Positions 26,901 to 61,276 of a stretch of 61,281 bases of DNA are shown in pieces. Position 1 is the stretch's first letter; every line of letters begins with the position of its first letter. Made by a program: the position numbers and the translations under genes. The notes beneath the pieces were generated by a model. That model saw only the letters and a program-made list of their open reading frames with translations, was not told the DNA's origin and searched no databases. The DNA comes from a virus. The stretch lies in the IMG/VR virus record IMGVR_UViG_3300030098_004783, positions 1 through 61,281 of that record; one strand, 5' to 3'.

Positions 26901-29621
26901 ATATAGTTCACTTGCGCCCTGTATAACTGTAGAGTTACCAGTAGTACCACTTGAACCTCCAATAGAGAATCCACCACTACCTGTTATATACCCACCTGTA
27001 CGTAGTCCTGCGGACGTATCGGAAGAACCAACAAACCTTGCATCGTCATATCCCATAGTTAATGTCATTTTGTTTCCTGCTGCTCGATTTACAGTAGTTC
27101 CTATAAGCCAATTTCTGTAACCGCCCAAATTGAGAACGTTACGAACTGTTATACTTTGAAAGTAAAACCTATTCCATCCCTGGTTAGTAGTCAAATTGTA
27201 GAACTCAATAGCGTCATCACCATCACTCTGGTCACCTATATATTGTTCTTCGCTGTAACTTTGGTTATTAGGTAAACTTAATGTTACATTTCCCCAGTTA
27301 GGAATAAATGTGCCTATGTTCTTCATTGTGTAATTACCAGATACATCTAATTGGTATATATCCATATTACCATTACTTGCTGAAACTGTTCCGTTAGTTC
27401 CTATCCACAGACCGTTCGCAAATTCTAAGTTCTCATATATTAAGTCTGCTAATTCCGAAGTCGTCTCTGATAGTCCGACTAACTCAGAACCTACTGAAAC
27501 TCTTTTAACACTAACGTTTTCAAATTTACTTCTGTAAGTTCCTTGACTTTCCATAGTACCATAAGATGTACCTTGAGTAGCGTGCGTAAGTAATGCAAAC
27601 ATACGTTTAAATCCATCGGCACTTGTATCCACATTCTGTGTAGTACCACGACTAGAACCTACTGCAGTTGTCATTATTCCTTGTTTTGGACCAGAACTGT
27701 GACTTCCGTCTAAGTTAGTGAAATCACTTGTTTGCACATAAACTTCGCCACGAGTTGTAGTGAATCCTGTTTCATTTCTATAACCCGACCAACTCGAACT
27801 ATTTTGGAAGTATCCACTAGGACCACCTAGTTTTGTAAAATTAGTAGTATAAGCACTGACTAAATCTTTATCTGCGGCAAGGTCACTCCCTAAAGCAGCA
27901 GTAACTAAATAACCAGTGTCAGATACACACATCCTACTTGTAGTCATACCGTGTGAGAATATATCTTCAGTAGTACCTCCAATAGTCCACCTGTGTATTC
28001 CTGGGTTTGGTGTTTTACCAGAATATACCGTATCTACTTGGTCTGGCGTTAATGCAACTTCATACATTCTAACATCTCTAATTTTACCATCTAAAAACCA
28101 TTGTGCAGTTCCGGCGTTATTTTCAGCTCCTATATATAATGGATATGCATCATCCATAGTAAACCCGCCCATATTTCCTGAAAATGTTCCATTTTTAGCA
28201 CTATCTGATGATAATGCTATTTCTTTTCCATTAACATATAATTTCATTACTGCATTAGAAGAATCTGTGTAAGACATTGTTGCAACTACGTGTGCCCAAG
28301 GATTGGCATTATCAACAAAAGTAGCAGATTCAGCTTGTGCATATTCACTAGTTCCGTTAGCTTGATACAAATATGTTAATTTGGAATCTGTCCCAACATA
28401 AAACAAAACTCTATCATTGCCACCATTAAATGCTCCTACAATAGTATTATTGGCTGTTGGGTCACCATCATCCAATCTAATCCAAGCAGACCACGAATGT
28501 GAAAGTCTTAACTGAGCTTGTGGAACTGTAGCAAATTTAATAAGTTCGTCAGAACCATCTAAGTCTAAACAAGATGCTGTTAGTGCTTCTAATTTACCTG
28601 AAGTTACATTGAAATTACCATTGACATAAAATGCAGAAGCATTATATATGTCTGTACCAGTACTATGTGAAGCTATTGTAGTTTGGTCTATACCTCTTCT
28701 TACTGTTAAGTCATTTGAAGATATACCAGAAACATACATCTTTTCACTTCCTATTTGTATAATTTGACCGGTGTGGAATTTAGTACCATCTTGAACAGTT
28801 AGTGTAACATCAGTCACGCTAGCAGTAAATGAACCATCGTTTGTATTAGTTCCTATGTCTCTGGTTTCATCACTCGATGGTATAACTTCAATAGCAAATT
28901 GTCCATAAGTTCTAGCTGTTCCTGTAACTGAAGGCGTACCGCCTCCTCCTCCTTGATTACTAGTTGCATTATTAATTAAAGGATAATGACCATCTGGCGT
29001 GCCTGCGCCTATAGTATCTTTGTGTATTCCTATCCTAGAAGATGCTATTGCTACTTGTGTAGCATTTAATACAGCATCGTAAATCATAACATCAGCAATG
29101 TATCCGTGAAAGTGACTGCCCGATGTAGCTGTGCATCCTATAAATAAGTCTTCATCTGGAGTTAAATCATTAGTAACAGAACCCTGAGAAGCAAATGACT
29201 CTCCATTCCAATATAATGTAGTTGTATTGAGAGTAGTATCGTGCACAATAGCCACGTGATGCCATTTGTCAGGATAACAAGGACCAGTGTCTAATAAATA
29301 CTGAGCACCGTCTCCCTTATCGTGATGTTGAAATCTAACTGTGTTGTCATCTCTGTGAATTAAATCCCACCGTCCACCGTCACTTCCCTTATATCCACTT
29401 AATATTTTTTGGTCAGCTGCAGATTTTGATGAATGCGCTTTAAACCAGCACATTATAGTAGTATTTCCAGAAGAATTTGTACTATTCAAATTTAAATTAG
29501 TATCTATCTTATCGTCACTTCCGTCGAAAAATAATACATCATCCATATCCATTTCAACGTTAGCATTACCAGGTGAACCACTCCATACTCCACCAGTTCC
29601 TATAAGTTTTATACTCGTCAT
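23904..29621 (-). CDS. Giant LamG/beta-solenoid virion protein (1905 aa)
   Basis: The longest protein in the window. LamG-type domains appear at about residues 28-210 (KWHHVAIVHDTTLNTTTLYW), 355-560 (WAHVVATMSYTDSSNAVMKL) and 1200-1420 (KWHHIAMTHDVSEDTGIKIY, YVDGKLDGQ). The last 450 residues carry at least three copies of a roughly 70-residue solenoid unit built around HNNGTVxFxG...FYNVIINGD (HQNGTVEFTHNTDS, HNNGTVTFDGTES, HNNGTVSFTGNSDS). The N-terminus GTGGVWSGSPGNANVEMDMD resembles GTGGIIEGNLGTADVDVNLD of the 1561-aa protein, so the two are paralogues. The role is probably glycan binding on the host surface. Confidence 0.65.
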   Translation of the reverse strand: MTSIKLIGTGGVWSGSPGNANVEMDMDDVLFFDGSDDKIDTNLNLNSTNSSGNTTIMCWFKAHSSKSAADQKILSGYKGSDGGRWDLIHRDDNTVRFQHHDKGDGAQYLLDTGPCYPDKWHHVAIVHDTTLNTTTLYWNGESFASQGSVTNDLTPDEDLFIGCTATSGSHFHGYIADVMIYDAVLNATQVAIASSRIGIHKDTIGAGTPDGHYPLINNATSNQGGGGGTPSVTGTARTYGQFAIEVIPSSDETRDIGTNTNDGSFTASVTDVTLTVQDGTKFHTGQIIQIGSEKMYVSGISSNDLTVRRGIDQTTIASHSTGTDIYNASAFYVNGNFNVTSGKLEALTASCLDLDGSDELIKFATVPQAQLRLSHSWSAWIRLDDGDPTANNTIVGAFNGGNDRVLFYVGTDSKLTYLYQANGTSEYAQAESATFVDNANPWAHVVATMSYTDSSNAVMKLYVNGKEIALSSDSAKNGTFSGNMGGFTMDDAYPLYIGAENNAGTAQWFLDGKIRDVRMYEVALTPDQVDTVYSGKTPNPGIHRWTIGGTTEDIFSHGMTTSRMCVSDTGYLVTAALGSDLAADKDLVSAYTTNFTKLGGPSGYFQNSSSWSGYRNETGFTTTRGEVYVQTSDFTNLDGSHSSGPKQGIMTTAVGSSRGTTQNVDTSADGFKRMFALLTHATQGTSYGTMESQGTYRSKFENVSVKRVSVGSELVGLSETTSELADLIYENLEFANGLWIGTNGTVSASNGNMDIYQLDVSGNYTMKNIGTFIPNWGNVTLSLPNNQSYSEEQYIGDQSDGDDAIEFYNLTTNQGWNRFYFQSITVRNVLNLGGYRNWLIGTTVNRAAGNKMTLTMGYDDARFVGSSDTSAGLRTGGYITGSGGFSIGGSSGTTGNSTVIQGASELYQCPVHNTNSNLNNHLWMQNSDVNAGYQPSGGNPVELANLSFQHDWTSVTEAVAHEDASCDTNHTSNQTTVTCDATTSIKVGHTVTGTGIPRDTVVTAVNNATVTSFTISQAATATNTNTTLKFHDIASYKITGPCSFKAITMQQGAHLDLNGQRIYVDGDFTISSTGRGSSFDADGEVYTTGSHAIGSLAHELTNNLSSHTVVHVNSSSKNQNTSLGGSYTLGRVVVNGGSTVRHSGDRDYGTTPLFVLSGTYDPDADATWGNIQAATSSTLDLDADTVTVKGNLVLSGGVLGDSAIDGTQGTVPHDKGTGSNSTKYHNSGDKTLEGWFKVDNGSAPSNVSTIGLISKDNYGHGMHMLADGTVRAGSTAGDSRYAVGNTAINDGKWHHIAMTHDVSEDTGIKIYVDGKLDGQSTASNPSGSDSGGNVPVEVGGSSYLHYDEIRIWEDVRTESEIRANMWTEIANDAAGLLGVYHCNDGSGSTFTDSAASGAENGTLGSASWVGAGGVSFTASNNSGTATAVIDFAASGSLKYKSGDLLPGLDISSGTVALSCVDTAQASSEITFDSVKITGGTFQGGAGKIKVRAETTGGFAWQHTSGTYTHQNGTVEFTHNTDSHIQENTFYNLIINGDSSGTATHWRPKSGSTLTVGNILQLKEGRFNVDNADDTLTVTSHMQVESGTTFNYDDDAAGAHNFKSLTIDSGGLFKATQGVTTLTGNNGSGYIMQASGNSRFEHNNGTVTFDGTESLPSIDVNDSFYNVIIDTNNKLRVIDQTFDIANDLTITSGGAFAHDSYPNTAIEVGGNVDIQGGTLGSTGCTANWQFNSLTIGNGATYIAPSGTTEITGEGDGTSGTNGYAWYNVTGTFTHNNGTVSFTGNSDSDIRDDTFYNVIINGDTSSVDYYIRQKDGDSSSSAHIRILNNLDIQRGGFSRAKSANELSVFGILDICSGGSGAYFGDTSDTGIYNLGTVNIHNNGTFNLSNGANNVNSIRNIAGTVARD

Positions 29622-43975: not shown

Positions 43976-44108
43976 CCATAGCCTATTGCACACCCACTCG
44001 CGCGCCCGCGCGCCTGCGCGCAGGGCCTTGACGATAAAAAGTCTCCTACGTGAGACCTCCCGCACACTTGCGTCAGGAACTCGCATTCGGGAATCACTCC
44101 AAGCTCAC

Positions 44109-44165
44109 GGAGGTGTAGACACACGTGGCCTTGACGTCGTCTATTCCAAAGCTTTATATAGAACC
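44109..44165 (+). promoter_or_regulatory. Duplicated promoter cassette, copy 1
   Basis: A 57-base segment that recurs at 45369-45425 with only about eight differences. It ends in TCCAAAGCTTTATATAGAACC: a BRE-like CCAAAG joined to the TATA box CTTTATATAG. From the TATA box to the expected start site is about 25-30 bases, placing transcription close to the GTG codons at 44175-44190. The 130 bases before it are CpG-rich (CGCGCGCCTGCGCGC type) and hold a small hairpin GTCTC-CTACGT-GAGAC. Confidence 0.62.
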
Positions 44166-44900: not shown

Positions 44901-45368
44901 ATCCATACGTGCGTAGGGTGTCACACGCGCCTACGCGCGTAGATTTCATCATCAGCAGGGCCTACGTGCGTATACGTGCGTATGTGAACGTAAAGAGGCT
45001 CTCTCGTCTACGTGCGTATACGTATGTATGCGAACGTTAGTGCTGGGGGTCAGATGTTCTTATACGTGCGGACGGATATTAGAGAGAATAAGTGCTGTTG
45101 CTGATACGTATACGTATATTACGTATGTATATACATATATGAACATATACGAACATCTACGTATAAGAACATCTACGAACGTATGAGAGAGAGAGGGGCT
45201 ATACACATACGTATGAGAACATAGAACATATATGTATATATATATACGTAGAAGTATGTCCTCTAATAACACAGATGCTATGTGTTTATAGCGTGGGTCT
45301 CGTGCGTGTGTGTCGCGGGTGTGACGTGCGGGTGATGTGGGGGTGTGTGTGGGGGTGTGTCACGGGTC
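44901..45368 (+). repeat. Repeat-rich non-coding block in the accessory island
   Basis: About 470 bases without a credible gene. It holds a 30-base direct repeat CTACGTGCGTATACGTRYGT... at 44962-44991 and 45008-45037; a 16-bp perfect inverted repeat (AGATGTTCTTATACGT at 45052-45067, its complement at 45159-45174); several GAACATMTAC units (45141-45180); and long alternating pyrimidine-purine tracts (TACGTGCGTATACGTGCGTA, ACATATATGTATATATATAT). The right part is G/T-rich. Possible roles are a replication origin, a regulatory site or a structured RNA. The block interrupts the second copy of the duplicated cassette. Confidence 0.6.
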
Positions 45369-45425
45369 GGAGGTGTAGACACACACGGCTTCAACATCCT
45401 CTATTCCAAAGCTTTATATAGAACC
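45369..45425 (+). promoter_or_regulatory. Duplicated promoter cassette, copy 2
   Basis: Second copy of the 57-base promoter segment, with the same BRE/TATA (CCAAAGCTTTATATAG). The ATG at 45446 lies 34 bases from the first base of the TATA box and there is no Shine-Dalgarno in the short gap, pointing to a leaderless transcript. Confidence 0.65.
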
Positions 45426-45445: not shown

Positions 45446-45910
45446 ATGTTTCGAAGTGAAGCGTTGAGGGATATCTCATCCCCGTGTGAGCAAGTCGGTG
45501 ACACTCTCCCTGAGTGTGCACGGGCTACGGCAGGGTCTCCTCACCCTGTCCGCCCATTCAGTTGGGCAATCGCCGAACAATACGCATTGTCTACGGATGA
45601 TGTGTTAGCGTGGCGAAGTGCGTGGTGTTCGTATAGGAATGCGTATAACCACGAAGAACCAGCCGTGCCAAACGAGGAGTTGGCAACGTATTCACGTGAG
45701 TCCCCATATCACGTGCAACATATACGTATGGCAGGAAAGTATGCGGATTCGATGGGCAACTATCACAAGGCCTACGCAAGTGACAGGACATCGAACCCAC
45801 TTGACCTCACAAACGCATCACTACGTGACTTCACGATAGCGATGGCGAAGGATGATAAGGCAGGTATCCTACGTGCCTTTGAGTATGCAGGATGGGACAC
45901 AAAGGAGTGA
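45446..45910 (+). CDS. Island protein of unknown function (154 aa)
   Basis: First gene after promoter copy 2; probably leaderless. The sequence is helical (PFSWAIAEQYALSTDDVLAW, SLRDFTIAMAKDDKAGILRA) with aromatic and histidine residues in the middle (SPYHVQHIRMAGKYADSMGN). No motif is recognised. It ends five bases before the next gene, which has its own AAGGAG. Confidence 0.55.
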   Translation: MFRSEALRDISSPCEQVGDTLPECARATAGSPHPVRPFSWAIAEQYALSTDDVLAWRSAWCSYRNAYNHEEPAVPNEELATYSRESPYHVQHIRMAGKYADSMGNYHKAYASDRTSNPLDLTNASLRDFTIAMAKDDKAGILRAFEYAGWDTKE

Positions 45911-45914
45911 AAAT

Positions 45915-46214
45915 ATGAACACAAACACAGACATAGATATGAGCATAGATGACGACTTCTACGGAGACGTAGATTTAACACAGGAAGAACGTGATATGAT
46001 ATACGAGGACAGCCTCGTAGGACGTGCGTATGATGAGCATCAGGATTGGAAGGATGAAGAATCCCTACGTGAGTTCTGCAAACCATACGTAAATTGGGCA
46101 AACGATTGGCACAACACAGGCAAGGCTTGGCTACACAATACACGTATGCAAGTTCGTGCCGACAAAGTGAACGAAGCAAAGGCCATACGCAAGTTATTCG
46201 GATGTGACCTATGA
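45915..46214 (+). CDS. Acidic island protein of unknown function (99 aa)
   Basis: The start at 45915 is set by AAGGAGTG eight bases upstream, beyond the previous stop; the frame extends further left but into that gene. The N-terminus is very acidic (NTDIDMSIDDDFYGDVDLTQ), the C-terminal half helical and more basic (NTRMQVRADKVNEAKAIRKL). It could be a DNA mimic or interaction protein by charge, but this is speculation. ATGA overlap downstream. Confidence 0.55.
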   Translation: MNTNTDIDMSIDDDFYGDVDLTQEERDMIYEDSLVGRAYDEHQDWKDEESLREFCKPYVNWANDWHNTGKAWLHNTRMQVRADKVNEAKAIRKLFGCDL

Positions 46215-46426
46215 GCTGGATTGAGGTCACCGTGCGTTTGCACGAAGATGAGGTGAAGCTACTTCCTATGTGCCTGACTGACGATGGCACGTATGAGGGA
46301 ACATTGGCGAACGGTATAATCGCACAGGTTATACGTGGGGCTAAGAAGGTGAACCCCAAAGGAGAGCTTGTGTATTCATACGTATACGATAGGGTCTACG
46401 AACATCTGGAGGATGAGAAAGAATGA
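46211..46426 (+). CDS. Island protein of unknown function (71 aa)
   Basis: Coupled by ATGA overlaps to both neighbours. Beta-rich (SWIEVTVRLHEDEVKLLPMC, GTYEGTLANGIIAQVIRGAK) with an acidic C-terminus. Coupling and codon use support translation. No family is recognised. Confidence 0.55.
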   Translation: MSWIEVTVRLHEDEVKLLPMCLTDDGTYEGTLANGIIAQVIRGAKKVNPKGELVYSYVYDRVYEHLEDEKE

Positions 46427-46596
46427 GCAGACGTAGGTCAGGTGCACGGACACCATACGAGAACTACGAGCTACCCAAGTCCAGCGAGAAGGGGGAACCC
46501 TTCATCGATTGGAACGAAGTCATCAAAAACGTGCGATTAAACCCACGTGGGAAACCTGTGCGTGTGATACGCAAAAAGAAGGGGGCCAAAAATTGA
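46423..46596 (+). CDS. Basic island microprotein (57 aa)
   Basis: Starts in an ATGA overlap with the previous stop. Arg/Lys-rich at both ends (MSRRRSGARTPYENYELPKS ... PVRVIRKKKGAKN) with a central FIDWNEVIKNVRLNPRG. Possibly nucleic-acid binding by charge. It is followed by a strong hairpin. Confidence 0.55.
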   Translation: MSRRRSGARTPYENYELPKSSEKGEPFIDWNEVIKNVRLNPRGKPVRVIRKKKGAKN

Positions 46597-46611
46597 GATG
46601 TTTACGGTTAA

Positions 46612-46643
46612 TTCAAACCTCTTCACAAAGTGAAGAGTTTGAA
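46612..46643 (+). other. Long hairpin before the amidoligase gene
   Basis: CTCTTCAC-AAA-GTGAAGAG is a perfect 8-bp stem with a 3-base loop, extended after a one-base bulge by TTCAAA/TTTGAA to 14 pairs. It sits 30 bases before the amidoligase start and 15 after the previous stop. It could attenuate or separate the two transcripts, or bind a dimeric regulator as DNA. Confidence 0.55.
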
Positions 46644-46673
46644 TGAACCTAACCAAAACCAAATGGAGAAAAT

Positions 46674-47987
46674 ATGGAATCAGAAAACGAAACCGATGAC
46701 ATCATTTGTGATGTCTGCCGTGACTCACCAGCTACTGCTGTGGAATGTCTCGAAGGCACAGATACTGACATATGTGACTGCTGTCTCGATGAACTACCTA
46801 CGGATGAGTGGAGTGGTGAGCTTGTCAGAGAAATCGTAGCCCACGTAGATGGCTACGGTGTAGGACGGGATACACTTGACGATGAGTGTTTCACCTGTGA
46901 TTGGAGTGGGGAGTATGGATTCAATGAGAATGCAGTTGAACTCACCTGCGGAGACATCGTTAATCGTGAGTATTACAGCGATGAGCTGTTCTACTGTCAC
47001 GATTGTGATTATCGAGGACATATCGATGATGCACAATGGATAGACCAGATTGAAGCATACGTATGTGATGACTGTTCGTGTGAACATAGGCACAGAGCTG
47101 ACCGTTGGCACAACAGATTCGCAAAGATTGTTTCCAATACGTTCAGTAAGTTCCCTGTCCGCAATTACGTGGGCATTGAGTTCGAAGCTGAAGAGGGAGA
47201 ACCTATACGTGATGTGATACCATCTGCCCTGTATAACAAAATCGCAGAGGCTAAAGACGATGGTTCTCTGAACTATGGCACGGAGTATGTGACACACCCA
47301 ATGCGTGGTGATGACATAGCTAACACGATAGATGAGATGTGCGATATGTTCGCATCAAATGGTTGGACATTAGGAACCAACGTAGGTTGGCACTTCCATT
47401 ATGATATGGACAGCTTGAGCATCAACCGTCAGAAGAACGTATGGAAGGCTATGCAGAGATTTGATAACCTAATACGTATGTCTGATGACTTCGGATATTT
47501 CAGAGATATGCAGAGGTCGTATGCCACAGGATGGACAGAACAATACGTAGCTTGGGCATCACAATGGGCGATGGATAAGAAGCGTGACTATGATTACAAC
47601 GCACATAGGAGACAGGCAACACGTGGCTCTGAGATGGGTAGATATGCGTGGCTTAATTGGTCTCCGATGGGGAACATAGATAATAAACGTGTAGAGATAC
47701 GATTGTATAGACCTATTACATACAGACGTAATTACACAGACGCTACAAGCTGGTCACGTAGTGCATACTCATCAGTAGCACAGGACTACAAACTATTCAT
47801 TCAATTTTGGAATGAGTTTATACGCAAGTCTGCGTATCGACCACGTTCGTTGAGATTCAGAGATGATGCACACGGACTGATTGATATGACAGAATTTGCA
47901 GGACAATTTTCACCAGAGGTGAAGGATTGGTTGATTACAAACCACAATACACATATAACACGACAGGAGGTGATAAACAATGTGTGA
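46674..47987 (+). CDS. Amidoligase-family protein with N-terminal zinc-binding region
   Basis: The 437-residue protein has two parts. Residues 1-140 hold CxxC-type pairs (CDVC 12-15, CDCC 34-37, CFTC 72-75, CHDC 108-111, CDDC 131-134), a multi-zinc region. Residues 160-370 match the putative amidoligase family (Amidoligase_2, glutamine-synthetase-like COOH-NH2 ligases): YVGIEFEAE (165-173), KDDGSLNYGTEYVTHPMRG (194-212), TNVGWHFHYDM (235-245) and RYAWLNWSP...RVEIRLYRPI (323-348), the E.E / D.S..G.E.V / G.H.H / RY..N....E.R set of that family. Such enzymes are predicted to form amide bonds using ATP. The next gene encodes a glutamine amidotransferase that would supply ammonia. The substrate is unknown; the zinc region may select a protein or nucleic acid target. 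It begins 30 bases after a hairpin and overlaps the next gene by eight bases. Confidence 0.75.
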   Translation: MESENETDDIICDVCRDSPATAVECLEGTDTDICDCCLDELPTDEWSGELVREIVAHVDGYGVGRDTLDDECFTCDWSGEYGFNENAVELTCGDIVNREYYSDELFYCHDCDYRGHIDDAQWIDQIEAYVCDDCSCEHRHRADRWHNRFAKIVSNTFSKFPVRNYVGIEFEAEEGEPIRDVIPSALYNKIAEAKDDGSLNYGTEYVTHPMRGDDIANTIDEMCDMFASNGWTLGTNVGWHFHYDMDSLSINRQKNVWKAMQRFDNLIRMSDDFGYFRDMQRSYATGWTEQYVAWASQWAMDKKRDYDYNAHRRQATRGSEMGRYAWLNWSPMGNIDNKRVEIRLYRPITYRRNYTDATSWSRSAYSSVAQDYKLFIQFWNEFIRKSAYRPRSLRFRDDAHGLIDMTEFAGQFSPEVKDWLITNHNTHITRQEVINNV

Positions 47988-49248
47988 GATACAATTCGTA
48001 ATGAGCGATACGTTGGGCAATGACAACGTTAATAACTTCATTGAAATGTTGAGTAAAGGTTCTAGGTCGAACGATGACGCAACAGGTATATTCAGTAGTT
48101 CATACCAATGGAAAGTTGGTAAGGCCTACGAGGATTTGAAAGATAAGAAAGATGACAGCATCAGACACGTGCTGTCCGCACTCCCAAGCAATTGGCTCGT
48201 GGGTCACAATAGACTTGCGACACAGGGTAGTGAGACTAATAACGAGAACAATCATCCGTTCTCGAATGATACTTGCACGATAGTGCATAATGGTATCATA
48301 GGTAATGACGATACGTTGAAGGCACAGTATGGCTTCGACTATAAAGCAGAGACAGATAGTGCGATAGTCCCTGCGTTAATTGACCATTACATACGTGATG
48401 GTAAGGATGAGATAGACGCTATCAAAGAAAGTGCAGAAGAACTAACAGGTTCGTATTCGATATTTGTATTTATGCACAGCACACAGAACCTATACTACCT
48501 CAAAAATAATTCGACATCATTTTATATGATGAAAACTCTCGATGCAAACGATAACGTAAGCATCTATGGTAGCACATCCAAGTCAAGCTTGGAGGATATG
48601 TCGTATATAAAAAGCGATGGACTGTTTGGTTCCGACCTATTTAAAGCACGACACATAACTACACCAGAGGGTGGTGTTATATATCACGTAGTATATAAAG
48701 GAGATAACGGAATGGATATTGTTAATGCAGGTGAATTTACACCTCAATCCTACGTATATAAAGGAGGAACTACGTATTACGGTAGGGGTGCCTACTCTTA
48801 TGGTGGTAATACATACTATGATTGGGATTCACTCGATGATACAGATTACGTAGGAGATAGCTGTTCGCTATCGAAGAATGAAACCAAACGTAAGGAACGT
48901 GCAGAATCTTCGGAAGCTATGAACGAGATACTAAAGGAGTTCGATACTAACGTAGATGATGTGTTCGAAGGAGTAGTGACTGACATAGAAAACTTCTGCG
49001 TATACGATGAGGATATAATATTTAGTGGACAATTCACGAATGATATTATGGATGCGGTATCTACGTATTCAAGTAGACATCAACAGATAGTTCTACGTGA
49101 CGTTCCTACTATGTATGGAACTTACTTGGAAAATTATTTAGATGCAACTGCGTGGATATCTACGGATGATGTAGGTAAAGGCGAGGACATTAGCAACTAT
49201 ACAGTTAAATACCAAGCACTTGTTAAGTATATAGAGGACAACCAATGA
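47980..49248 (+). CDS. Class II glutamine amidotransferase (Ntn hydrolase)
   Basis: Releases ammonia from glutamine. The protein starts MCEIQF, so Cys2 becomes the N-terminal nucleophile after Met removal. Further family marks: RSNDDATGIF (29-38), GHNRLATQG (75-83, as in GHTRWATHG), NHPF (91-94), IVHNGIIGN (101-109), ETDSAI (124-129) and GSYSIFVF (near 152). The domain covers residues 1-200; the C-terminal 220 residues (with GYYGRGAYSYGG-like Gly/Tyr stretch and FDTNVDDVFEGVVTDIENFC) are not recognised and are not the GlmS isomerase. The eight-base overlap with the amidoligase gene suggests the two work together. It ends in an ATGA overlap with the next gene. Confidence 0.82.
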   Translation: MCEIQFVMSDTLGNDNVNNFIEMLSKGSRSNDDATGIFSSSYQWKVGKAYEDLKDKKDDSIRHVLSALPSNWLVGHNRLATQGSETNNENNHPFSNDTCTIVHNGIIGNDDTLKAQYGFDYKAETDSAIVPALIDHYIRDGKDEIDAIKESAEELTGSYSIFVFMHSTQNLYYLKNNSTSFYMMKTLDANDNVSIYGSTSKSSLEDMSYIKSDGLFGSDLFKARHITTPEGGVIYHVVYKGDNGMDIVNAGEFTPQSYVYKGGTTYYGRGAYSYGGNTYYDWDSLDDTDYVGDSCSLSKNETKRKERAESSEAMNEILKEFDTNVDDVFEGVVTDIENFCVYDEDIIFSGQFTNDIMDAVSTYSSRHQQIVLRDVPTMYGTYLENYLDATAWISTDDVGKGEDISNYTVKYQALVKYIEDNQ

Positions 49249-49925
49249 AAACGTTAGCACTTAATCCTGATAAAAACGCAGACGATAACATATCAGACGC
49301 AGTCGATTTCTTTACACGACATTGTCACGGTGAGAAAGAACTTACCGGATTATTTGCATTCGAAGATAGAGACCCATACGCACTATACCATCCACGATGG
49401 AATGGTAGACCACTATTACCTGAGAAATTAGCGTCAGCTATTGATAGGTGGTGTGATAAAGGTAAAGGATGGGCGATACTACATAGCCGTTCATACCCAC
49501 GTGGAACTAATTCACGTAGAGAACGTATGCCGTTGAGGTTATCTACTTACCAATACTTCTTTCACATAGGTGGATATGGTAGCCAATCATTGTGGAATGA
49601 AGTGCAACGTTCACGTAGAGTAAAGAGGCCAACTAATATGGCGGTATATAATGCGTGGATACAATCACAAATATCAGATGATTTTCTTAACAGATGGAGA
49701 GACTATCACAACTTAAGCGATGAGGGTAATGAACGCACACGTTCATTCTGTTCATTCGTATGGGATAATGGTATGATAAAGAAATACAATATGTATGAAG
49801 ATGATTACGAGGATAATAGTCCGACACGATATAAGGTGTATAGTGTAGAGGGATACGACAATGATAACACATTGACTTATCGCCCTGCGTTTACTATGCA
49901 ACCAGAATGGGATGGTGTGCAATAA
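49245..49925 (+). CDS. Unknown protein in the amidoligase cluster (226 aa)
   Basis: ATGA overlap with the amidotransferase gene and TAATG overlap with the next. The sequence is rich in Arg, Tyr and Trp (DRWCDKGKGWAILHSRSYPR, NRWRDYHNLSDEGNERTRSF). The middle segment WAILHSRSYPRGTNSR recalls the GHNRLAT block of class II amidotransferases, so it may be a degenerate relative, but the N-terminal Cys is absent. Its coupling makes it a likely third component of the module. Confidence 0.55.
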   Translation: MKTLALNPDKNADDNISDAVDFFTRHCHGEKELTGLFAFEDRDPYALYHPRWNGRPLLPEKLASAIDRWCDKGKGWAILHSRSYPRGTNSRRERMPLRLSTYQYFFHIGGYGSQSLWNEVQRSRRVKRPTNMAVYNAWIQSQISDDFLNRWRDYHNLSDEGNERTRSFCSFVWDNGMIKKYNMYEDDYEDNSPTRYKVYSVEGYDNDNTLTYRPAFTMQPEWDGVQ

Positions 49926-50461
49926 TGGGTGCGTATCCATTTAGTCAGGCAGTCAAATGGCCTGAACATATGTGCGAACATTGTAGTAATATAATCGGCC
50001 CTGTCGATGTGTTCGGTAATAATCCAGACGATAATAAATGCGAGGGTGCGGGTATGAAACTGAAACCACAATGGGGTGGTAAACTCGAAGGACAGGCAGA
50101 TGATGACCCTACGCAACACGCATTCATAGATATATCATATGGTATACGTGACCATACAGACTCTGAGAAATTTAGAAAGTTCGTTATGGAAACTAAACGT
50201 ATGGCTGTTCCTATGTGTGAACTTGGTAAACAATTACCAAAGATACACGTGCAAAGACAGTCAGACTGTGAGTATCCAGAGATTAGAAAGAAGATGGATA
50301 TGGATGGAGTCCCACGTATGGTGGACATAGAAGGACATAAATTCTGCGGACATTGTCACGTCAAGCAGACGTATCAGGGCTACGCAGATTACTCGTGGCG
50401 TTCGACAGCAGAGACCTGCACGAACCCTGATTGTATAATGAACGGAGGTAAAGAACAATGA
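49925..50461 (+). CDS. Zinc-binding protein in the amidoligase cluster (178 aa)
   Basis: The start at 49925 is chosen for the TAATG overlap with the previous stop. It has two Cys clusters: MCEHCSN near residue 17, and FCGHCHVK ... TCTNPDC near the C-terminus, each able to bind zinc. The middle contains RKFVMETKRMAVPMCELGKQ and a basic region. No enzyme motif is seen. ATGA overlap with the next gene. Confidence 0.55.
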   Translation: MGAYPFSQAVKWPEHMCEHCSNIIGPVDVFGNNPDDNKCEGAGMKLKPQWGGKLEGQADDDPTQHAFIDISYGIRDHTDSEKFRKFVMETKRMAVPMCELGKQLPKIHVQRQSDCEYPEIRKKMDMDGVPRMVDIEGHKFCGHCHVKQTYQGYADYSWRSTAETCTNPDCIMNGGKEQ

Positions 50462-50601
50462 GTAAACACACAGATGAACTGCTTGAAGCAGTTCAGGAGA
50501 TATCCGCAATCATTTACTATCAGTCGAATTTAAAAGAGCAGGATAGATGGTTAGCAGATATAATGGAGAAAGGTATATGGCTCCCAGAGGATGACGACTG
50601 A
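50458..50601 (+). CDS. Small helical protein (47 aa)
   Basis: Starts in an ATGA overlap and ends in TGATG with the next gene. Mostly helical and acidic (TDELLEAVQEISAIIYYQSN, WLADIMEKGIWLPEDDD). Coupling is the main evidence for translation. Function unknown. Confidence 0.5.
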   Translation: MSKHTDELLEAVQEISAIIYYQSNLKEQDRWLADIMEKGIWLPEDDD

Positions 50602-50735
50602 TGGAAGATATATGCGATTTCATTGACGGTAGTGGCATAGTAGAATGTCCAGATTGCGGTGAGGTAGTAGAGACCGTAGACGAAGATAAGTGTCCTTACT
50701 GTCACAATGGAAAATATATGTATGGAGATATATAA
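50601..50735 (+). CDS. Zinc-ribbon microprotein (44 aa)
   Basis: Shares a base with the previous stop (TGATG). ECPDCGEVVE and DKCPYCHNG form two CxxC knuckles 12 residues apart, a rubredoxin-like zinc ribbon. The next gene begins on the base after its stop. Likely an interaction or nucleic-acid-binding module. Confidence 0.6.
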   Translation: MEDICDFIDGSGIVECPDCGEVVETVDEDKCPYCHNGKYMYGDI

Positions 50736-51083
50736 ATGAAACAAAACAAAATATTAACAGAGTTTCTCGATATGATAGACGAAGCCCATAAGATAGAGGC
50801 ATCTAACATAGACATAAAGAAGATACTCTCACCTGCACAGTTCAGGCAATTTACAGAAATGGAAGAGGTTATTAACAATATGTTTTCAGCTAATAACCTA
50901 CACGAAGGCATACGTAAGACAATAGACGGTGCCAAGCTAAACAATACGCAACAGATAAACGTATTGATTATGCTAAAAATATTTGAAACATTCATCGGTG
51001 CGATGAAGGAGGCTGGTATACAACCCGATACAAGCAGTAGCAATTATGATTTGCCTACTGACTTCGGTGACTTGTATGCCTAA
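50736..51083 (+). CDS. Helical protein of unknown function (115 aa)
   Basis: Begins directly after the zinc-ribbon stop, with AUGGAGAUAU-type purines just upstream. Almost wholly helical (ILTEFLDMIDEAHKIEASNI, TEMEEVINNMFSANNLHEGI, NVLIMLKIFETFIGAMKEAG). No motif is recognised. A long hairpin follows its stop. Confidence 0.58.
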   Translation: MKQNKILTEFLDMIDEAHKIEASNIDIKKILSPAQFRQFTEMEEVINNMFSANNLHEGIRKTIDGAKLNNTQQINVLIMLKIFETFIGAMKEAGIQPDTSSSNYDLPTDFGDLYA

Positions 51084-51084
51084 A

Positions 51085-51130
51085 ACACACATAGTAGGTA
51101 AGTTAGTAAACGTACTTACCTACTCTGTGT
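51085..51130 (+). terminator. Long hairpin after the helical protein gene
   Basis: AGTAGGTAAG (51093-51102) and CTTACCTACT (51115-51124) form a perfect 10-bp stem with a 12-base loop; flanking ACACA and TGTGT can extend it. It starts two bases after a stop codon. There is no T-tract, so it may be an RNA-processing or attenuation element rather than a classic terminator. Confidence 0.5.
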
Positions 51131-51161
51131 GGTGATACAAAAAATTAAAGGAGAATTAAAA

Positions 51162-51494
51162 ATGACAAACAACAGATTTAGTAGAATGTCCTCACGTAGT
51201 GGGGGTAATGATAGCTCCGCCAAATCAGGCGGGAACGTTAAGTATAACGTAATTAAGAGTGAACGTGTGGATTGGGAACCAAATAACTTTTTGGAAATAT
51301 CCCACAAGTCATACGATGCTAAGGGTGAGAACTCTGGTAGTGGTGAGTTTTACTCACTATCACGTGGCTACTACGCAACCGGCAACGGTGACGTAGATGA
51401 AGGCACACCTATATACCAGAAGAACCTTACGCTTCCAGCTGACGATAAGTTCCTCGATAGCTTCATCGGTGCATTAGATAAGATATTTTCTTAG
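51162..51494 (+). CDS. Possible single-strand DNA-binding-like protein (110 aa)
   Basis: The start at 51162 follows AAAGGAG at good spacing; the frame extends further left without such a site. A flexible Ser/Gly/Asn-rich N-terminus (SRMSSRSGGNDSSAKSGG) precedes a beta domain (NFLEISHKSYDAKGE, GEFYSLSRGYYATGNG, IYQKNLTLPADDKFLDSFIG). The order of strands then a final helix recalls PC4-like single-strand DNA-binding domains, but similarity is weak. It is preceded by a hairpin and probably marks a new translation unit. Confidence 0.45.
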   Translation: MTNNRFSRMSSRSGGNDSSAKSGGNVKYNVIKSERVDWEPNNFLEISHKSYDAKGENSGSGEFYSLSRGYYATGNGDVDEGTPIYQKNLTLPADDKFLDSFIGALDKIFS

Positions 51495-51502
51495 GTGCAT
51501 AG

Positions 51503-51667
51503 ATGAGAAGCAAAGATGTTCGCACAGGTATGGTTCACGAGATGCATAGTATAACTACTGCATATGAGAACCTACGCACAGTAATGAGTAAGCCTTCACC
51601 TATGAGTAGGTGGAGTGAGGTTAAGGATGCTCTTGAGCGTCTATCATCTGCTATTTACGGACAGTGA
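51503..51667 (+). CDS. Small protein of unknown function (54 aa)
   Basis: An ORF between two supported genes with the same codon style (CGC, CGT, ACG). Mostly helical (VRTGMVHEMHSITTAYENLR, SRWSEVKDALERLSSAIYGQ). GGTG before the ATG is a weak site. It contains six methionines in 54 residues. Function unknown. Confidence 0.45.
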   Translation: MRSKDVRTGMVHEMHSITTAYENLRTVMSKPSPMSRWSEVKDALERLSSAIYGQ

Positions 51668-51739
51668 ATACGTAGATAAATACACCCTTGCAATACACGT
51701 AGGATATTGTATCTTAGTATCAATAGTGGTGTTATCAAT

Positions 51740-51967
51740 ATGAGATATCATATAGCTTATTCAAATCAGATACGTTTGAAGGATGGCCGAGTACTCACGT
51801 ACGATGACGTTGAACTTCACGAAGAGACACACGAGTACGACGTAGGCACGAGAGAGAAACACAATACACCACGTAAGGGTGATGAGCTGGAGTATCTCGA
51901 AGATTTTATGTCAGGCAACTTTGTTGTCATCCTCGAGAAAGGAGACGTAGAACAATTAAGTGATTAA
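51740..51967 (+). CDS. Small island protein (75 aa)
   Basis: The ATG at 51740 is preferred over an upstream TTG at 51707. The sequence is beta-rich and charged (IAYSNQIRLKDGRVLTYDDV, ELHEETHEYDVGTREKHNTP) with a C-terminal GNFVVILEKGDVEQLSD. The stop overlaps the next GTG start. Not recognised. The 70 bases before it hold no clear promoter. Confidence 0.5.
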   Translation: MRYHIAYSNQIRLKDGRVLTYDDVELHEETHEYDVGTREKHNTPRKGDELEYLEDFMSGNFVVILEKGDVEQLSD

Positions 51968-52607
51968 GGTGAACCGATTACATATACGATACGAGCCGAG
52001 AGTAGGCACTAAGTCTGGAGGGGGATACAATAACACTTCCTCTGGACTGCACGAAGTGAGGCACGTAGATGATGTAGTTGAGTTTGTATTTCTTAATGAA
52101 ATATACGTGAGGTTCGGTAGCGTTGATTCACTCAACGTCTACCCTCACCCACCTTATGATGATGACCTACGCAACCACGATGTATCTGAATTACAGATGG
52201 TAGCGGACAATAGGTTCGCACGTGTCATCGACAATCTTTTTAGAAAAGAATGTATTGATGACAACAACATACACGAGTATGTATTTAGAATTTACAGACG
52301 ACCTACGTATGGTCGAACTGATATACCTGCGTATTGGGATATAACTATACGTGAGCATAATATCGATTTGCCACGTTACGCACATAGCCCTGCTCCTACG
52401 GAGATGTACGTAGGTGAGTTCAAGGATACGTGGACTGACGAACAACGTGAGGTTGTGCGTGAGTTCCGTGCGTACGCTGTGAGTTTCCCGCGTTCGCTGA
52501 CTGAGAATCAATTCATCGAGTTCTATATGCAACGGATAAAAGATAGCCCTTCCCGCGCCGATGCTCGTAGAATATGGAAACATAGGGCAGAAATGGGATT
52601 AGTATAA
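51960..52607 (+). CDS. Last island protein, unknown function (215 aa)
   Basis: Starts with GTG inside the end of the previous gene (AAGTGATTAAGG). Residues 1-75 look like a beta domain (VRHVDDVVEFVFLNEIYVRF, GSVDSLNVYPHPPYDDDL); the rest includes VFRIYRRPTYGRTDIPAYWD and a helical C-terminus with SRADARRIWKHRAEMG. CGT-rich codon use ends with this gene; the next gene returns to A/T-rich codons. Confidence 0.52.
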   Translation: MIKVNRLHIRYEPRVGTKSGGGYNNTSSGLHEVRHVDDVVEFVFLNEIYVRFGSVDSLNVYPHPPYDDDLRNHDVSELQMVADNRFARVIDNLFRKECIDDNNIHEYVFRIYRRPTYGRTDIPAYWDITIREHNIDLPRYAHSPAPTEMYVGEFKDTWTDEQREVVREFRAYAVSFPRSLTENQFIEFYMQRIKDSPSRADARRIWKHRAEMGLV

Positions 52608-53441: not shown

Positions 53442-53537
53442 ATGTGGCAAATCTCTGATATAGGTAGCTGTATAGAATGTACAGAATACACAGCTATAGA
53501 TGAATACAATACTTGTGAAATATGTAGTATATTATGA
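53442..53537 (+). CDS. Zinc-ribbon microprotein (31 aa)
   Basis: Follows AAGGAG; encodes CIECTEY and CEICSIL, two CxxC knuckles 12 residues apart. The final TGA overlaps the ATG of the AAA+ gene (ATGA). Very short, yet with both Cys pairs and coupled translation. Confidence 0.55.
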   Translation: MWQISDIGSCIECTEYTAIDEYNTCEICSIL

Positions 53538-54883
53538 TTCAAAAACGAAAGAGTAATCTCAATGACTTACACCGATACTTCGAAAGTTGTTTTGTGTTAG
53601 GTAAAAGAGACCCTATATTAGAAAACCACGAAACTCGTATACTCGCCTTATTATTATGGGCGATTGCTGGTAAATCAGTATGTATTAGAGGTGAGTCTGG
53701 CAGTGCTAAAACTAAAATATTAAACGCAGTAACTGCATTGATATATGGTGACGAAGGACTCGCGGGACGCAATCCCAGTGTTTTATGGTTGAATTCATCT
53801 TCAGCCAAAGGACATCTTACTGAGGATAGTGCTCACGTTATAACACAATCTAAGCGTTGTGTTATTCCTGAGCTACAAAATATATTGACATCTCAAAATC
53901 TAGAAGCTATGATTAAGCTTTGGATGGAAGACCGTCCGTATATATACAGTAAGAACGAAATGGGTAGACGTACTGTCAGGATAATACTTGACCCTAAACC
54001 AATATTGACGAACCTTGCCGATGGAAACGAAAGTTTACCACAGCTCCCTGTTGAAATGAGACGTAGAGTAATAAGTTTGCCTACGTTCTCTAGTAAGGAG
54101 TTAAACGAAAAAGTTCACCATCTAAAGGCAGTAAGTCGTATGTTACCAGACGATAAGCTAGTGAAATTATCACGTATAGAAACCAGTGGCTTAAAAAATC
54201 AAATAAAAGAAGCTATGGGATTAGATAAACGTGTTATAAATCCAGGAGCAGACGTCATACGTACGACTATACCAGCAATATATACAATGTCAAACACATT
54301 CATAGATTATTACTTTGATGTTATAGAAGCAGTTACTAAGTTTCACCATAGAGAAAGAGCACAGGATTTGGATTATATTTATTCGACTCCTGCGGACAAT
54401 TTCATTGGTTTCTTATTGGCCGGTAGTATCTTCAGAGATATGTCAATAGGAATCAATCCGATTGGGAAAGAAATTATAGATTTCGTACCAAAAGCGGAAG
54501 TGTGGGGAGATTTAGTAACAGAAAGCGAGTCAGATGCAGTTCATATAGACGAAATCACTGACCACCTTTCAACAAAAGGAATAAACCGAACTAAGAAAAT
54601 GATTGAATATACAATGGAACGTTTAGTTGATACTAATTTTGTAAGGAGATTAAATAAAACAAACAAGTATTATAGAACGCAGGACTTTGATTTTAGTAGG
54701 TCAGTAGATTGGAAGGGTTTAGTAGATGCTTGTATAACGAATATGGAGAGTAATTCACCACATATTGCAGAAGAATATAAGAAGGATGATTTACATATGT
54801 ATACAGACCCATTTACAGGCGAACATAAGAATATACCTATGACATTACAAGTATATGGAGGACATATAGATGAAGGAGTATGA
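53534..54883 (+). CDS. AAA+ ATPase with C-terminal winged helix (replicative helicase or loader candidate)
   Basis: Walker A IRGESGSAKTKIL (residues 51-63). The usual acidic Walker B is not obvious: the best candidate is CVIPELQNI (109-117), giving only Pro-Glu in place of Asp-Glu. Arginine-rich segments RTVRII and PVEMRRRVISLP could hold a sensor or finger Arg. Residues about 330-400 form a winged helix (HIDEITDHLSTKGINRTKKM, ERLVDTNFVRRLNKTNKYYR). MCM helicases combine AAA+ and a C-terminal winged helix, and no other helicase is seen, so this may unwind viral DNA; an MCM N-terminal domain is absent. Alternative: a helicase loader or packaging-type ATPase. Located upstream of nuclease and polymerase genes. 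Confidence 0.6.
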   Translation: MIQKRKSNLNDLHRYFESCFVLGKRDPILENHETRILALLLWAIAGKSVCIRGESGSAKTKILNAVTALIYGDEGLAGRNPSVLWLNSSSAKGHLTEDSAHVITQSKRCVIPELQNILTSQNLEAMIKLWMEDRPYIYSKNEMGRRTVRIILDPKPILTNLADGNESLPQLPVEMRRRVISLPTFSSKELNEKVHHLKAVSRMLPDDKLVKLSRIETSGLKNQIKEAMGLDKRVINPGADVIRTTIPAIYTMSNTFIDYYFDVIEAVTKFHHRERAQDLDYIYSTPADNFIGFLLAGSIFRDMSIGINPIGKEIIDFVPKAEVWGDLVTESESDAVHIDEITDHLSTKGINRTKKMIEYTMERLVDTNFVRRLNKTNKYYRTQDFDFSRSVDWKGLVDACITNMESNSPHIAEEYKKDDLHMYTDPFTGEHKNIPMTLQVYGGHIDEGV

Positions 54884-55436: not shown

Positions 55437-55606
55437 TAATAATAGAAGATTTGATATGGCACCTTGAATCTTTAAATGAAGATTTAGAAGATAAAGGTCT
55501 AGAAGTTACTATTGACTTCTTAAGATATATGAGAAGAAACATAGCAGGTAGAGGAACTTTATCAGGTTTTCTATCAGCAGATGAGTATAGGGAGATAAAA
55601 ATATGA
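55433..55606 (+). CDS. Small protein, unknown function (57 aa)
   Basis: The start is the GTG at 55433 (GTGA overlap, AGGAGG six bases upstream) rather than the upstream ATG at 55406, which overlaps the zinc-ribbon gene. Helical (IEDLIWHLESLNEDLEDKGL, FLRYMRRNIAGRGTLSGFLS). The pattern xWHLEsLNEDleDKGLEVti looks like a regulator or adaptor, but no family is named. ATGA overlap with the isoprenoid synthase-like gene. Confidence 0.55.
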   Translation: MIIIEDLIWHLESLNEDLEDKGLEVTIDFLRYMRRNIAGRGTLSGFLSADEYREIKI

Positions 55607-56208
55607 AAGAGATAATGGAAAAGTACAGCACGACATTCTTTGAATGTGTACAAGAATGGCCCAAAGAAATTAGAGAAGATATATATAAACTATATGCTTA
55701 TCTGAGGGTCATAGACGAAATGGTAGAAGGTGATGCTGATTGGAACGACTTTAAAAAATGGAGAAAGATAATAGAACAATTCTACGAAGTGTGTGATAGA
55801 CACGAGTTCGAGGGACAGTGGCTTATAGATTTTCACCAAGCTATGCTGACTGATTTAAAAACTAAAGAACACACAACTACATCTATGATAGAATATTGTA
55901 AAGGGTCGGGTGAATCGGTTGGACTAATGGTTTCAAGAATACTAGGATGTTCACCAGCTGGTGATGAATACGCTAGAGCATTAGGTAGAGCATACCAAAT
56001 AATAAATTTCGTGAGAGATTACGACGACGATGTATCTAAAGGTTATCACTATATTGGTGAAGACAAAAACTTCTACATTCGTATGTTTATTAACGAGCTA
56101 ACGTTTGCTTCTACAGGTTTACAGTTTATACCTAAACACTTACGTGGACCAATAGTCGAGGCGAACAAAAAATATCTACAGGTGGCAGATGATAATAAAG
56201 GGTTTTAG
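55603..56208 (+). CDS. Squalene/phytoene-synthase-like protein (head-to-head prenyl transferase family)
   Basis: Family members join two C15 or C20 prenyl diphosphates head to head (squalene, phytoene) at a membrane. Visible: KLYAYLRVIDEMVEGD (residues 29-44) corresponds to the YAF.R.iDDivD motif with first acidic cluster D38...E42/D44; SMIEYCKGSGESVGLMVSRI (94-113) to the Y....AG.VG.M region; YARALGRAYQIINFVRDYDD (123-142) followed by DVSKGYHYI to the LG.A.Q..NilRD...D...GR.Y motif with the second acidic cluster D139/D141-D143. At 201 aa it is about 80 residues shorter than usual (roughly 280-350), mainly at the C-terminus. The catalytic residues seem kept, so activity is plausible but unproven. 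Substrate and product cannot be read. It is coupled to its neighbours in a replication operon with no other lipid gene. An altered host lipid or pigment route, or a changed function, are both possible. Confidence 0.75.
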   Translation: MKEIMEKYSTTFFECVQEWPKEIREDIYKLYAYLRVIDEMVEGDADWNDFKKWRKIIEQFYEVCDRHEFEGQWLIDFHQAMLTDLKTKEHTTTSMIEYCKGSGESVGLMVSRILGCSPAGDEYARALGRAYQIINFVRDYDDDVSKGYHYIGEDKNFYIRMFINELTFASTGLQFIPKHLRGPIVEANKKYLQVADDNKGF

Positions 56209-60895: not shown

Positions 60896-61276
60896 ATGAG
60901 AAGAGACGAAGATTATTTACAAGATTTAATTGAATCAATGTTTGGACTAAATAATATTATGTACAATAGTGTACCTAAATATAAACCTAGGAAAGACGCG
61001 GCTAATAGAAATGTCGAAGTTGATTCGACTGGCGACGCTGTTAATATAACGATGGATTTGCCAGGTGTAGAGCTAGCAGATATCAACTTAGAAGTTGATG
61101 AATTTAATGTAGTAATAACCGCTAAGAACGGTATAAGAAACTACAAGTTTAATAGGACATTTAAGTTTTCTTTAGATGCGAACAAAGCTAAAGCAACATT
61201 TAAGAATGGAGTATTAAACGTATCAGTGGAGAAGGTTGCCAAACCTGATATGAAAAAGGTTACAATAGAAGGCTGA
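60896..61276 (+). CDS. Small heat-shock protein (Hsp20/alpha-crystallin)
   Basis: A 126-residue chaperone. The alpha-crystallin domain runs from about residue 40: VEVDSTGDAVNITMDLPGVE, then LADINLEVDEFNVVITAKNG, and ends with the signature AKATFKNGVLNVSVEK (A.FKNGVL.V..PK type), followed by a short C-terminal tail. TTAGGAG precedes the ATG. Holds unfolded proteins without ATP; in a virus it may support assembly or protect replication proteins. Hsp20 genes occur in several large marine phages. Confidence 0.9.
   Translation: MRRDEDYLQDLIESMFGLNNIMYNSVPKYKPRKDAANRNVEVDSTGDAVNITMDLPGVELADINLEVDEFNVVITAKNGIRNYKFNRTFKFSLDANKAKATFKNGVLNVSVEKVAKPDMKKVTIEG

Follow-up and report, generated by a model that had tools for sequence, protein, structure and literature searches.

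The locus described here raises the question of what an amidoligase and a glutamine amidotransferase might modify in a virus whose host is likely archaeal. Pairs of this kind are common in phages, and the bacterial cell wall has been suggested as their target in the literature. In the 61,281-nt stretch of viral DNA analyzed here (IMG/VR record IMGVR_UViG_3300030098_004783, hereafter the window), the two genes form part of a four-gene cassette (AL1, GAT, G3 and G4) that looks like a machine for putting ammonia onto a target, a kit already known in bacterial viruses. The features of the locus are as follows:

46606-46649, + strand: leader hairpin of 44 nt (GGTT...AACC) with 19 pairs, an AAA triloop, one bulge and one mismatch
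46674-47987, + strand: AL1, with a Cys-rich N-terminal region (~residues 12-134) and an amidoligase (GS-like COOH-NH2 ligase) domain from ~residue 160
47980-49248, + strand: GAT, a complete class II (Ntn) glutamine amidotransferase with a Cys2 nucleophile and an extra C-terminal region
49245-49925, + strand: G3, a probable pseudo-amidotransferase lacking Cys2, based on a Foldseek search with its model
49925-50461, + strand: G4, a small Cys-rich protein with two CxxC motifs, its order conserved in close relatives

All four genes lie on the + strand in a compact series of consecutive overlaps. The GAT start codon (ATG at 47980) precedes the end of the AL1 stop codon at 47987, giving an overlap of 8 nt, while GAT and G3 overlap by 4 nt (ATGA at 49245) and G3 and G4 by 1 nt (TAATG at 49925). 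A sequence-only reading of the window had described an amidoligase gene overlapping an Ntn amidotransferase gene and followed by a coupled third gene, and the 8-nt and 4-nt overlaps confirm this; its three-gene set was nonetheless incomplete, as the unit also takes in a coupled fourth gene (49925-50461) and the hairpin upstream (46606-46649). It had also put forward 49245-49925 for comparison with Ntn amidotransferases, but this is the third gene, and the actual amidotransferase is encoded at 47980-49248. Across five genome pairs purifying selection acts on each of the four genes, with dN/dS values of 0.11-0.26 for AL1, GAT and G4 and 0.33-0.45 for G3, and the cassette is therefore no chance arrangement. 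No family match was found for G4 (49907-50461) in Pfam and PHROG scans, and a PADLOC scan of nine window proteins returned no defence match.

GAT matches the Pfam families GATase_6 (E = 3.3e-10) and GATase_7 (E = 9.2e-8), phrog_4736 across residues 1-327, and the glutaminase domain of E. coli GlmS (phmmer, E = 7.7e-8). The residues characteristic of class II (Ntn) enzymes, C2, R78, H103-N104-G105 and D126, are conserved in 5/5 aligned rows, and the earlier identification of an N-terminal-nucleophile glutamine amidotransferase is upheld by these family matches, the GlmS alignment and the retained Cys2 and HNG motif. Genes such as this are often named as GlmS-like aminosugar enzymes, and the GlmS proteins are the best characterised relatives of GAT, but such a function is scarcely credible here: the match covers the glutaminase domain alone, the C-terminal isomerase domains that GlmS membership entails are absent, and the score of 74.6 bits falls far below the NCBIfam cut-off of 381.

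AL1 is an amidoligase of the GS-like COOH-NH2 ligase superfamily. In the proposed comparison of 46674-47987 with PF12224 (Amidoligase_2), the curated cut-off was passed at 25.9 versus 22 bits (E = 1.1e-5), a marginal membership, with PF12224 absent in Pfam searches from the AL1 orthologues of two close relatives (L002 and L004) and from AL1 of the distant relative L012. Residues G167, E169, E171, D196-G197-S198, E204, H240, H242, N328, E341 and R343 are invariant in 8/8 aligned rows; the GxExE, DGS and E elements are presumably the acidic residues of the metal/ATP site, and the motifs expected to supply the ATP-site and carboxylate residues of a ligase are thus retained throughout. The AL1 model (mean pLDDT 48.7) is nearest to YbdK-like ligases, Dop and glutamine synthetases, at Z scores of 6.6-7.8 that are all below 8, with the next row at 4.4; a search of the PDB with the ligase sequence profile gave a single chance-level match and nothing else. 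By tblastn AL1 had no match in 50,697 phage records, and in 84,980 species genomes a scan limited by its short patterns returned 74 pattern stretches but no relative. When the second amidoligase of L012 was used as query, AL1 alone was matched in the window. CxxC motifs lie at residues 12, 34, 72, 108 and 131, and 14 Cys residues precede the catalytic domain against one after it; the N-terminal Cys motifs foreseen as multiple zinc knuckles are thus present, but zinc-ribbon-like CxxC motifs describes them better.

The leader hairpin, which ends 24 nt before the AL1 ATG, is the sole hairpin in the window with at least 14 pairs, none being found in three shuffles; its z score is -4.71. It is the most conserved stretch of the cassette, with 48 of 50 columns invariant in five genomes compared to a mean of 18.9, and its stem contains one compensatory pair change. 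An Rfam search of 46300-46900 returned no match.

The third protein, G3, is probably a pseudo-amidotransferase, judging from its predicted structure. The suggestion that it is a degenerate amidotransferase domain gains support from a Foldseek search in which ranks 1-47 were class II amidotransferases only (best E = 1.5e-4, TM 0.28-0.43), obtained with a low-confidence model (pLDDT 61.7) that resembles the GlmS, PurF and EgtC glutaminases, and from the absence of the N-terminal nucleophile Cys in 6/6 rows (MKT, MKT, MRT, MRT, MTRT and MQTY). By eye, the order of the motifs TGLF, H-x-R and F-x-H-x-GG in the window protein also parallels GAT. That G3 is instead unrelated to amidotransferases is the weaker option, improbable but with some claim to attention: profile comparison of G3 with GAT (hhalign, 5 and 12 GAT rows) was not significant, and the VIA rows fail to separate amidotransferases from other folds, with a designed protein and polymerase little-finger domains at Z 5.0-5.8 over ~80 residues versus GlmS at 4.8 over 163 residues. 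G3 had no family match in Pfam and PHROG scans and no tblastn match in the 50,697 phage records.

The same four-gene order is present in 4/4 close relatives showing all genes (L002, L004, L005 and L006), and the AL1 ligase occurs on 6/6 terminase-related contigs reaching the site. In the distant relative represented by L011 and L012, all four genes are kept, G4 in diverged form, but they are reordered, and a second amidoligase lies behind G3. An amidotransferase also stands beside the ligase in L015-L019, and in L020 the two are divergently oriented; genetic linkage of the pair, as the sequence-only reading expected, is kept in every relative reaching the site. The uncultivated viral contigs L015, L018 and L019 resemble the window in that the amidoligase carries CxxC motifs in an N-terminal fusion, with a GATase gene directly behind, but G3 and G4 were not found there by profile. 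The L018 and L019 loci adjoin apparent serine recombinases, as judged by eye. L016 and L017 have a tandem set of two ligases and as many amidotransferases, with the second ligase of L016 matching PF04107; the gene types are those of the window, but both amidotransferases keep MCG, whereas the putative second amidotransferase of the window no longer has this Cys and no second ligase turned up there. Among 32 records (31 found via GAT, plus L015, with L040 and L043 excluded), at least 10 contain PF12224, 12 PF14395 and 19 either family, whole records rather than neighbours being counted; these are lower bounds because the PF12224 search missed 5/5 close relatives known to hold AL1.

The pair itself is less novel than had been claimed, since amidoligase and GATase genes together are widespread in phages and already described in the literature, and a probable pair is present in cultivated haloviruses. 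As in the window, Amidoligase_2 (PF12224) and GATase_6 are encoded together in phages UFV-P2 and tf, the OM43 phages and ZRK32, according to published descriptions, and in UFV-P2 the two genes are reported to be close and co-directional, with a second COOH-NH2 ligase (PF14395). The window differs from these in its fused Cys-rich arm, pseudo-amidotransferase, Cys-rich G4, leader hairpin and probable archaeal host, and in that no ATP-grasp partner was found. The cultivated haloviruses phiCh1 and ChaoS9 probably carry a ligase/amidotransferase pair, on the evidence of their predicted proteins: PhiCh1_200 and ChaoS9_220, annotated as uncharacterized and with no Pfam match, contain the full ordered set of amidoligase motifs and directly precede the class II amidotransferases PhiCh1_195 and ChaoS9_215. 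They lack the Cys-rich arm, and G3 and G4 were not seen in the annotated neighbourhood. The ligase assignment derives from the ordered motifs alone, hhalign comparison with the Zn-type amidoligases being not significant (P = 0.07). After removal of redundant loci, including L063, the motif expression matched 16 of 529 frames of at least 200 aa and 0 of 10,580 shuffles, a count that is not blind, as the expression was composed after viewing the phiCh1 and ChaoS9 sequences. No biochemistry of this ligase/amidotransferase family was found in the literature surveyed.

The virus is marine, and its host is likely archaeal, as judged from its gene relatives. The only relatives of the ATPase (53534-54883) among the 50,697 phage records are eight haloarchaeal tailed-virus records, and the window PolB also has haloviral relatives. 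These favor the archaeal host that had been assumed, but other markers do not: the terminase had no match in the same phage records, the RNR is nearest to those of roseophages, and species-genome scans with AL1 and the terminase gave no host link (for the terminase, 64 pattern stretches in 84,980 genomes but no relative, short patterns limiting the scan).

The cassette is best read as a glutamine-dependent amide synthetase in which GAT supplies ammonia to AL1 and the target is most likely a protein, a reading to which a probability of roughly 0.6 is assigned. GAT would hydrolyse glutamine via its N-terminal Cys and pass ammonia to AL1 in a complex; AL1 would activate a carboxylate with ATP as an acyl-phosphate and convert it to a carboxamide; and the Cys-rich arm of AL1, together with G4, would hold or select the target. 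The inactive G3 may have stayed on as a subunit with a structural or regulatory role after duplication of a ligase/amidotransferase module, an origin made plausible by the tandem modules of L016 and L017, and the hairpin may control expression of the cassette. More tentatively, marine and haloarchaeal tailed viruses might share a peptidoglycan-independent, hairpin-controlled machine in which a Zn-armed ligase with an active and a pseudo-amidotransferase amidates a specific protein of virus or host.

Ammonia is not the sole amine that GS-like ligases can couple, which speaks against an amide synthetase. AL1 could build a peptide or small metabolite from an amino acid or amine, with GAT merely feeding glutamate or ammonia to nitrogen metabolism as part of an auxiliary metabolic cassette. 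The superfamily includes gamma-glutamyl ligases (PF04107 for the second ligase of L016, and the YbdK-like rows), an ATP-grasp ligase is often added in phage cassettes (L017; UFV-P2, PMC3890496), and the ZRK32 report (PMC10945688) proposes a role in nitrogen metabolism. This role is nevertheless unlikely here, as no ATP-grasp or other peptide-ligase match was obtained in Pfam scans of 38 distinct window proteins, a subset of the ORFs, and it is hard to see what the Cys-rich arm or G4 would do in metabolite synthesis.

A similarly low probability is given to a carboxylate of the host surface (archaeal S-layer or acidic glycan, or bacterial peptidoglycan) as a target altered to block superinfection. 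Cell-wall change for superinfection exclusion has been suggested for phiEco32 (PMC10580990, citing Iyer 2009); in phiCh1 the pair is flanked by two integrase genes close to an invertible tail-fibre segment, a site suited to lysogenic conversion, and two giant ConA/laminin-G-domain proteins are encoded in the window. Judged by their families, however, AL1 and GAT would be cytosolic, and the window scans made revealed no recognisable lysogeny gene. Amidation of a hypermodified base in DNA or a nucleotide is very improbable: archaeosine-type chemistry does involve class II amidotransferases, but the family scans of 38 distinct window proteins gave no match to 7-deazaguanine or DNA-transglycosylase families, and the DNA bases once listed among the candidate substrates thus find no support in these searches.

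That the pair occurs in a virus with a probably peptidoglycan-free host weakens the wall explanation as a general answer, and the probable presence of such a pair in phiCh1 and ChaoS9, viruses of cultivated archaea, brings the target question within reach of bench experiments. The pseudo-amidotransferase and leader hairpin open new ways to study the construction and control of such cassettes. If a protein-amidation machine is indeed encoded here, the common amidoligase/amidotransferase kits of phages would target mainly proteins and not cell walls.

The amidoligase and amidotransferase genes belong to a cassette of four genes arranged head to tail, with successive overlaps of 8, 4 and 1 nt, and a hairpin lies upstream of the first gene.

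Components of the cassette
46606-46649, leader hairpin, 44 nt, 19 pairs with an AAA triloop
46674-47987, + strand, AL1, amidoligase, 437 aa
47980-49248, + strand, GAT, class II glutamine amidotransferase, 422 aa
49245-49925, + strand, G3, 226 aa
49925-50461, + strand, G4, 178 aa

AL1 exceeds the Pfam cut-off for Amidoligase_2 (E 1.1e-5) and carries five CxxC motifs and 14 cysteines N-terminal to its catalytic domain. GAT is assigned to the class II amidotransferases by Pfam, NCBIfam and alignment to GlmS, and matches phrog_4736 (PHROGs, E 2.6e-19); G3 and G4 had no family match in Pfam or PHROGs. Residues G167, E169, E171, D196, G197, S198, G202, E204, H240, H242, N328, E341 and R343 are invariant in eight aligned ligases, namely seven AL1 rows (the window and the near-identical L011 and L012 contigs included) and a second ligase of L012; the metal-, ATP- or carboxylate-binding roles given to individual AL1 residues are presumed. 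In GAT, Cys2, Arg78, HNG 103-105 and Asp126 are kept in 5/5 rows. As the catalytic positions of both enzymes are retained, the loss of ligase active-site residues that the sequence-only reading had named as evidence against it was not seen, the motif positions being invariant in 8/8 ligases. In the L004 and L005 contigs, an in-frame ATG precedes LCEIQF at the start of the amidotransferase ORF (L004:7294-7311, L005:7292-7309), and the cysteine falls at position 2 only with translation starting at the Leu codon. Confidence in the predicted AL1 structure is low (mean pLDDT 48.7). In a VIA comparison with 104 candidate chains only, four glutamine synthetases, Dop and two predicted ligases of the YbdK type nonetheless filled the top seven rows at Z 6.6-7.8, ahead of the first unrelated hit at Z 4.4.

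Five close relatives of AL1 were found among viral contigs (61-75% identity). One of these contigs, L003, ends inside GAT, and in all four relatives with every gene visible (L002, L004, L005 and L006) the order AL1-GAT-G3-G4 is kept within a longer conserved block, bearing out the expected linkage of the pair. With the terminase as query (15 loci), so that contigs were not picked by the cassette itself, AL1 was present in 6/6 contigs able to reach the cassette site; the other nine cannot include the site, since on the upstream side of the terminase they extend for under 5.2 kb. L011 and L012, counted as a single distant lineage (terminase 73%, AL1 about 42%), have the order AL1, GAT, G4, G3, second amidoligase (PF12224, E 4.5e-15); a search of the window for a second ligase found none. 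L002 (4015-4482) and L006 (5492-5959) have an additional gene of 155 aa, placed after the upstream small gene and before the hairpin; the window, L004 and L005 lack it.

The third protein had been suggested to be a degenerate amidotransferase, and the evidence on G3 is divided. Foldseek searches of the PDB with the predicted model, which is of middling quality (pLDDT 61.7, pTM 0.61), placed class II amidotransferases (GlmS, PurF, GFAT, EgtC) at ranks 1-47 with a best E of 1.5e-4, but with low TM-scores of 0.28-0.43. The protein also lacks an N-terminal cysteine, since it begins MKT, MRT, MTRT or MQT in 6/6 relatives. Against this, VIA did not set the amidotransferases apart, scoring a designed protein and polymerase little-finger domains at Z 5.0-5.8 over ~80 residues and GlmS at Z 4.8 over 163 residues, and profile-profile comparison of G3 with GAT gave no significant match. 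A degenerate amidotransferase is the identity we favor for G3, with a probability of about 0.7. Its origin may lie in the second amidotransferase of a double module, whose partner ligase would survive in L012 but not in the window; tandem double modules of this kind occur in two other viral loci, L016 and L017, and suggest such a route.

In a wider survey, a GAT profile search retrieved 40 loci; 19 of 32 surveyed records (31 from these loci plus L015) contain PF12224 or the COOH-NH2 ligase family PF14395 somewhere in the record. The ligase is directly beside the amidotransferase in L015-L019, and the two adjoin in divergent orientation in L020. The tandem arrays of L016 and L017 comprise two ligases and two amidotransferases each: the first amidotransferase is preceded by a PF14395-type ligase and the second by another ligase. 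This second ligase has a GCS2 match in L016 and only weak ligase-family matches in L017, where the module additionally includes an ATP-grasp gene. CxxC motifs are also found N-terminally in the L015, L018 and L019 ligases, and the fused Cys-rich arm is therefore not confined to the window virus. In published phage genomes, amidoligase and glutamine amidotransferase genes are reported together in UFV-P2 (PMC3890496), phage tf (PMC3517423), OM43 phages (PMC10580990) and phage ZRK32 (PMC10945688), and for phiEco32 a cell-wall change against superinfection was suggested (Iyer et al. 2009, as cited by PMC10580990).

Among the papers listed for amidoligases of archaeal viruses, Poseidoniales and haloarchaea, none was seen to describe the pair in an archaeal virus. 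A class II amidotransferase is listed for the haloviruses phiCh1 and ChaoS9 in PMC8651126; the gene immediately before it, in ChaoS9 and in phiCh1 (corrected record), encodes an uncharacterised protein of 355-357 aa.

Halovirus proteins with amidoligase motifs, uncharacterised, directly before a class II amidotransferase
L063:1929-2996, PhiCh1_200
L062:1923-2996, ChaoS9_220

Their motifs GMExE, DASGPRE, GSHVHL and N...LTIELR stand in amidoligase order, and a motif expression, not written blind, matched 16/529 frames versus 0/10,580 shuffles; 14 of the matched frames are amidoligases by other evidence, the others being the proteins of ChaoS9 and of the viral locus L066. Proteins of this type had no significant match in Pfam or hhalign, PhiCh1_200 falls in a PHROGs family of unknown function, and the ChaoS9 paper gives the gene as uncharacterised (PMC6471424). 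From its motifs, the halovirus protein is probably a ligase not recognised earlier. The phiCh1 pair lies near an invertible tail-fibre segment. Magroviruses are reported to carry a 'GlmS' auxiliary gene (PMC10160649), which may be the amidotransferase of a comparable cassette.

The assignment of the window to an archaeal virus is plausible, and only part of the evidence favors it. The ATPase at 53534-54883 matched eight phage records, every one a haloarchaeal tailed virus, and haloviruses make up 19 of the best 20 rows for PolB, although 838 records from many hosts match overall. On the other hand, the terminase had no match in the phage collection and no relatives were found in species genomes, and the nearest relatives of the RNR are roseophages. 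Elsewhere in the window, two giant neighbors (19219-29621; 1561 and 1905 aa) contain ConA/laminin-G domains in repeated copies and are probable host-binding tail fibres. The window also encodes a squalene/phytoene synthase family protein of only 201 aa (55603-56208; PF00494, E 2.3e-24) and an HSP20 small heat-shock protein (60896-61276; PF00011, E 6e-11).

The leader hairpin is the sole hairpin of at least 14 pairs in the 61,281 bases, with none in three shuffles, and the 84-nt stretch around it has a folding z of -4.71. Across five aligned genomes (45446-52607), no other 50-column window is as well conserved as the one at the hairpin (48 invariant columns versus a mean of 18.9, sd 13.7), while synonymous sites of genes in these genomes differ, with dS up to about 2. 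The only covariation seen is in L004, where paired C-to-T and G-to-A changes preserve the loop-adjacent pair. A pattern scan of viral contigs matched five, all with AL1. A hairpin of 15 pairs with a GAA loop, unlike that of the window in sequence, stands immediately upstream of AL1 in L012; the contig has a similar hairpin about 700 bases before it and another elsewhere. Our first reading of the element is an RNA leader; a palindromic DNA site or origin is a possible alternative. A 58-nt direct repeat (44108-44165 and 45368-45425, 88% identical, 1260 bases apart) sits in a stretch full of short repeats.

The established chemistry of the amidotransferase and amidoligase families underlies our model of the cassette, in which GAT would release ammonia and AL1 would form an amide, consuming ATP. 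Target selection probably falls to the Cys-rich arm and G4, and a scaffolding or regulatory role is probable for G3. For the target, a protein is our first choice, followed by a host-surface carboxylate, a small metabolite and, last, DNA; Pfam scans of 38 distinct window proteins found no DNA-modification families. The core of the cassette is ordinary, and what is unusual is the candidate pseudo-amidotransferase, the leader hairpin and the probable archaeal setting.
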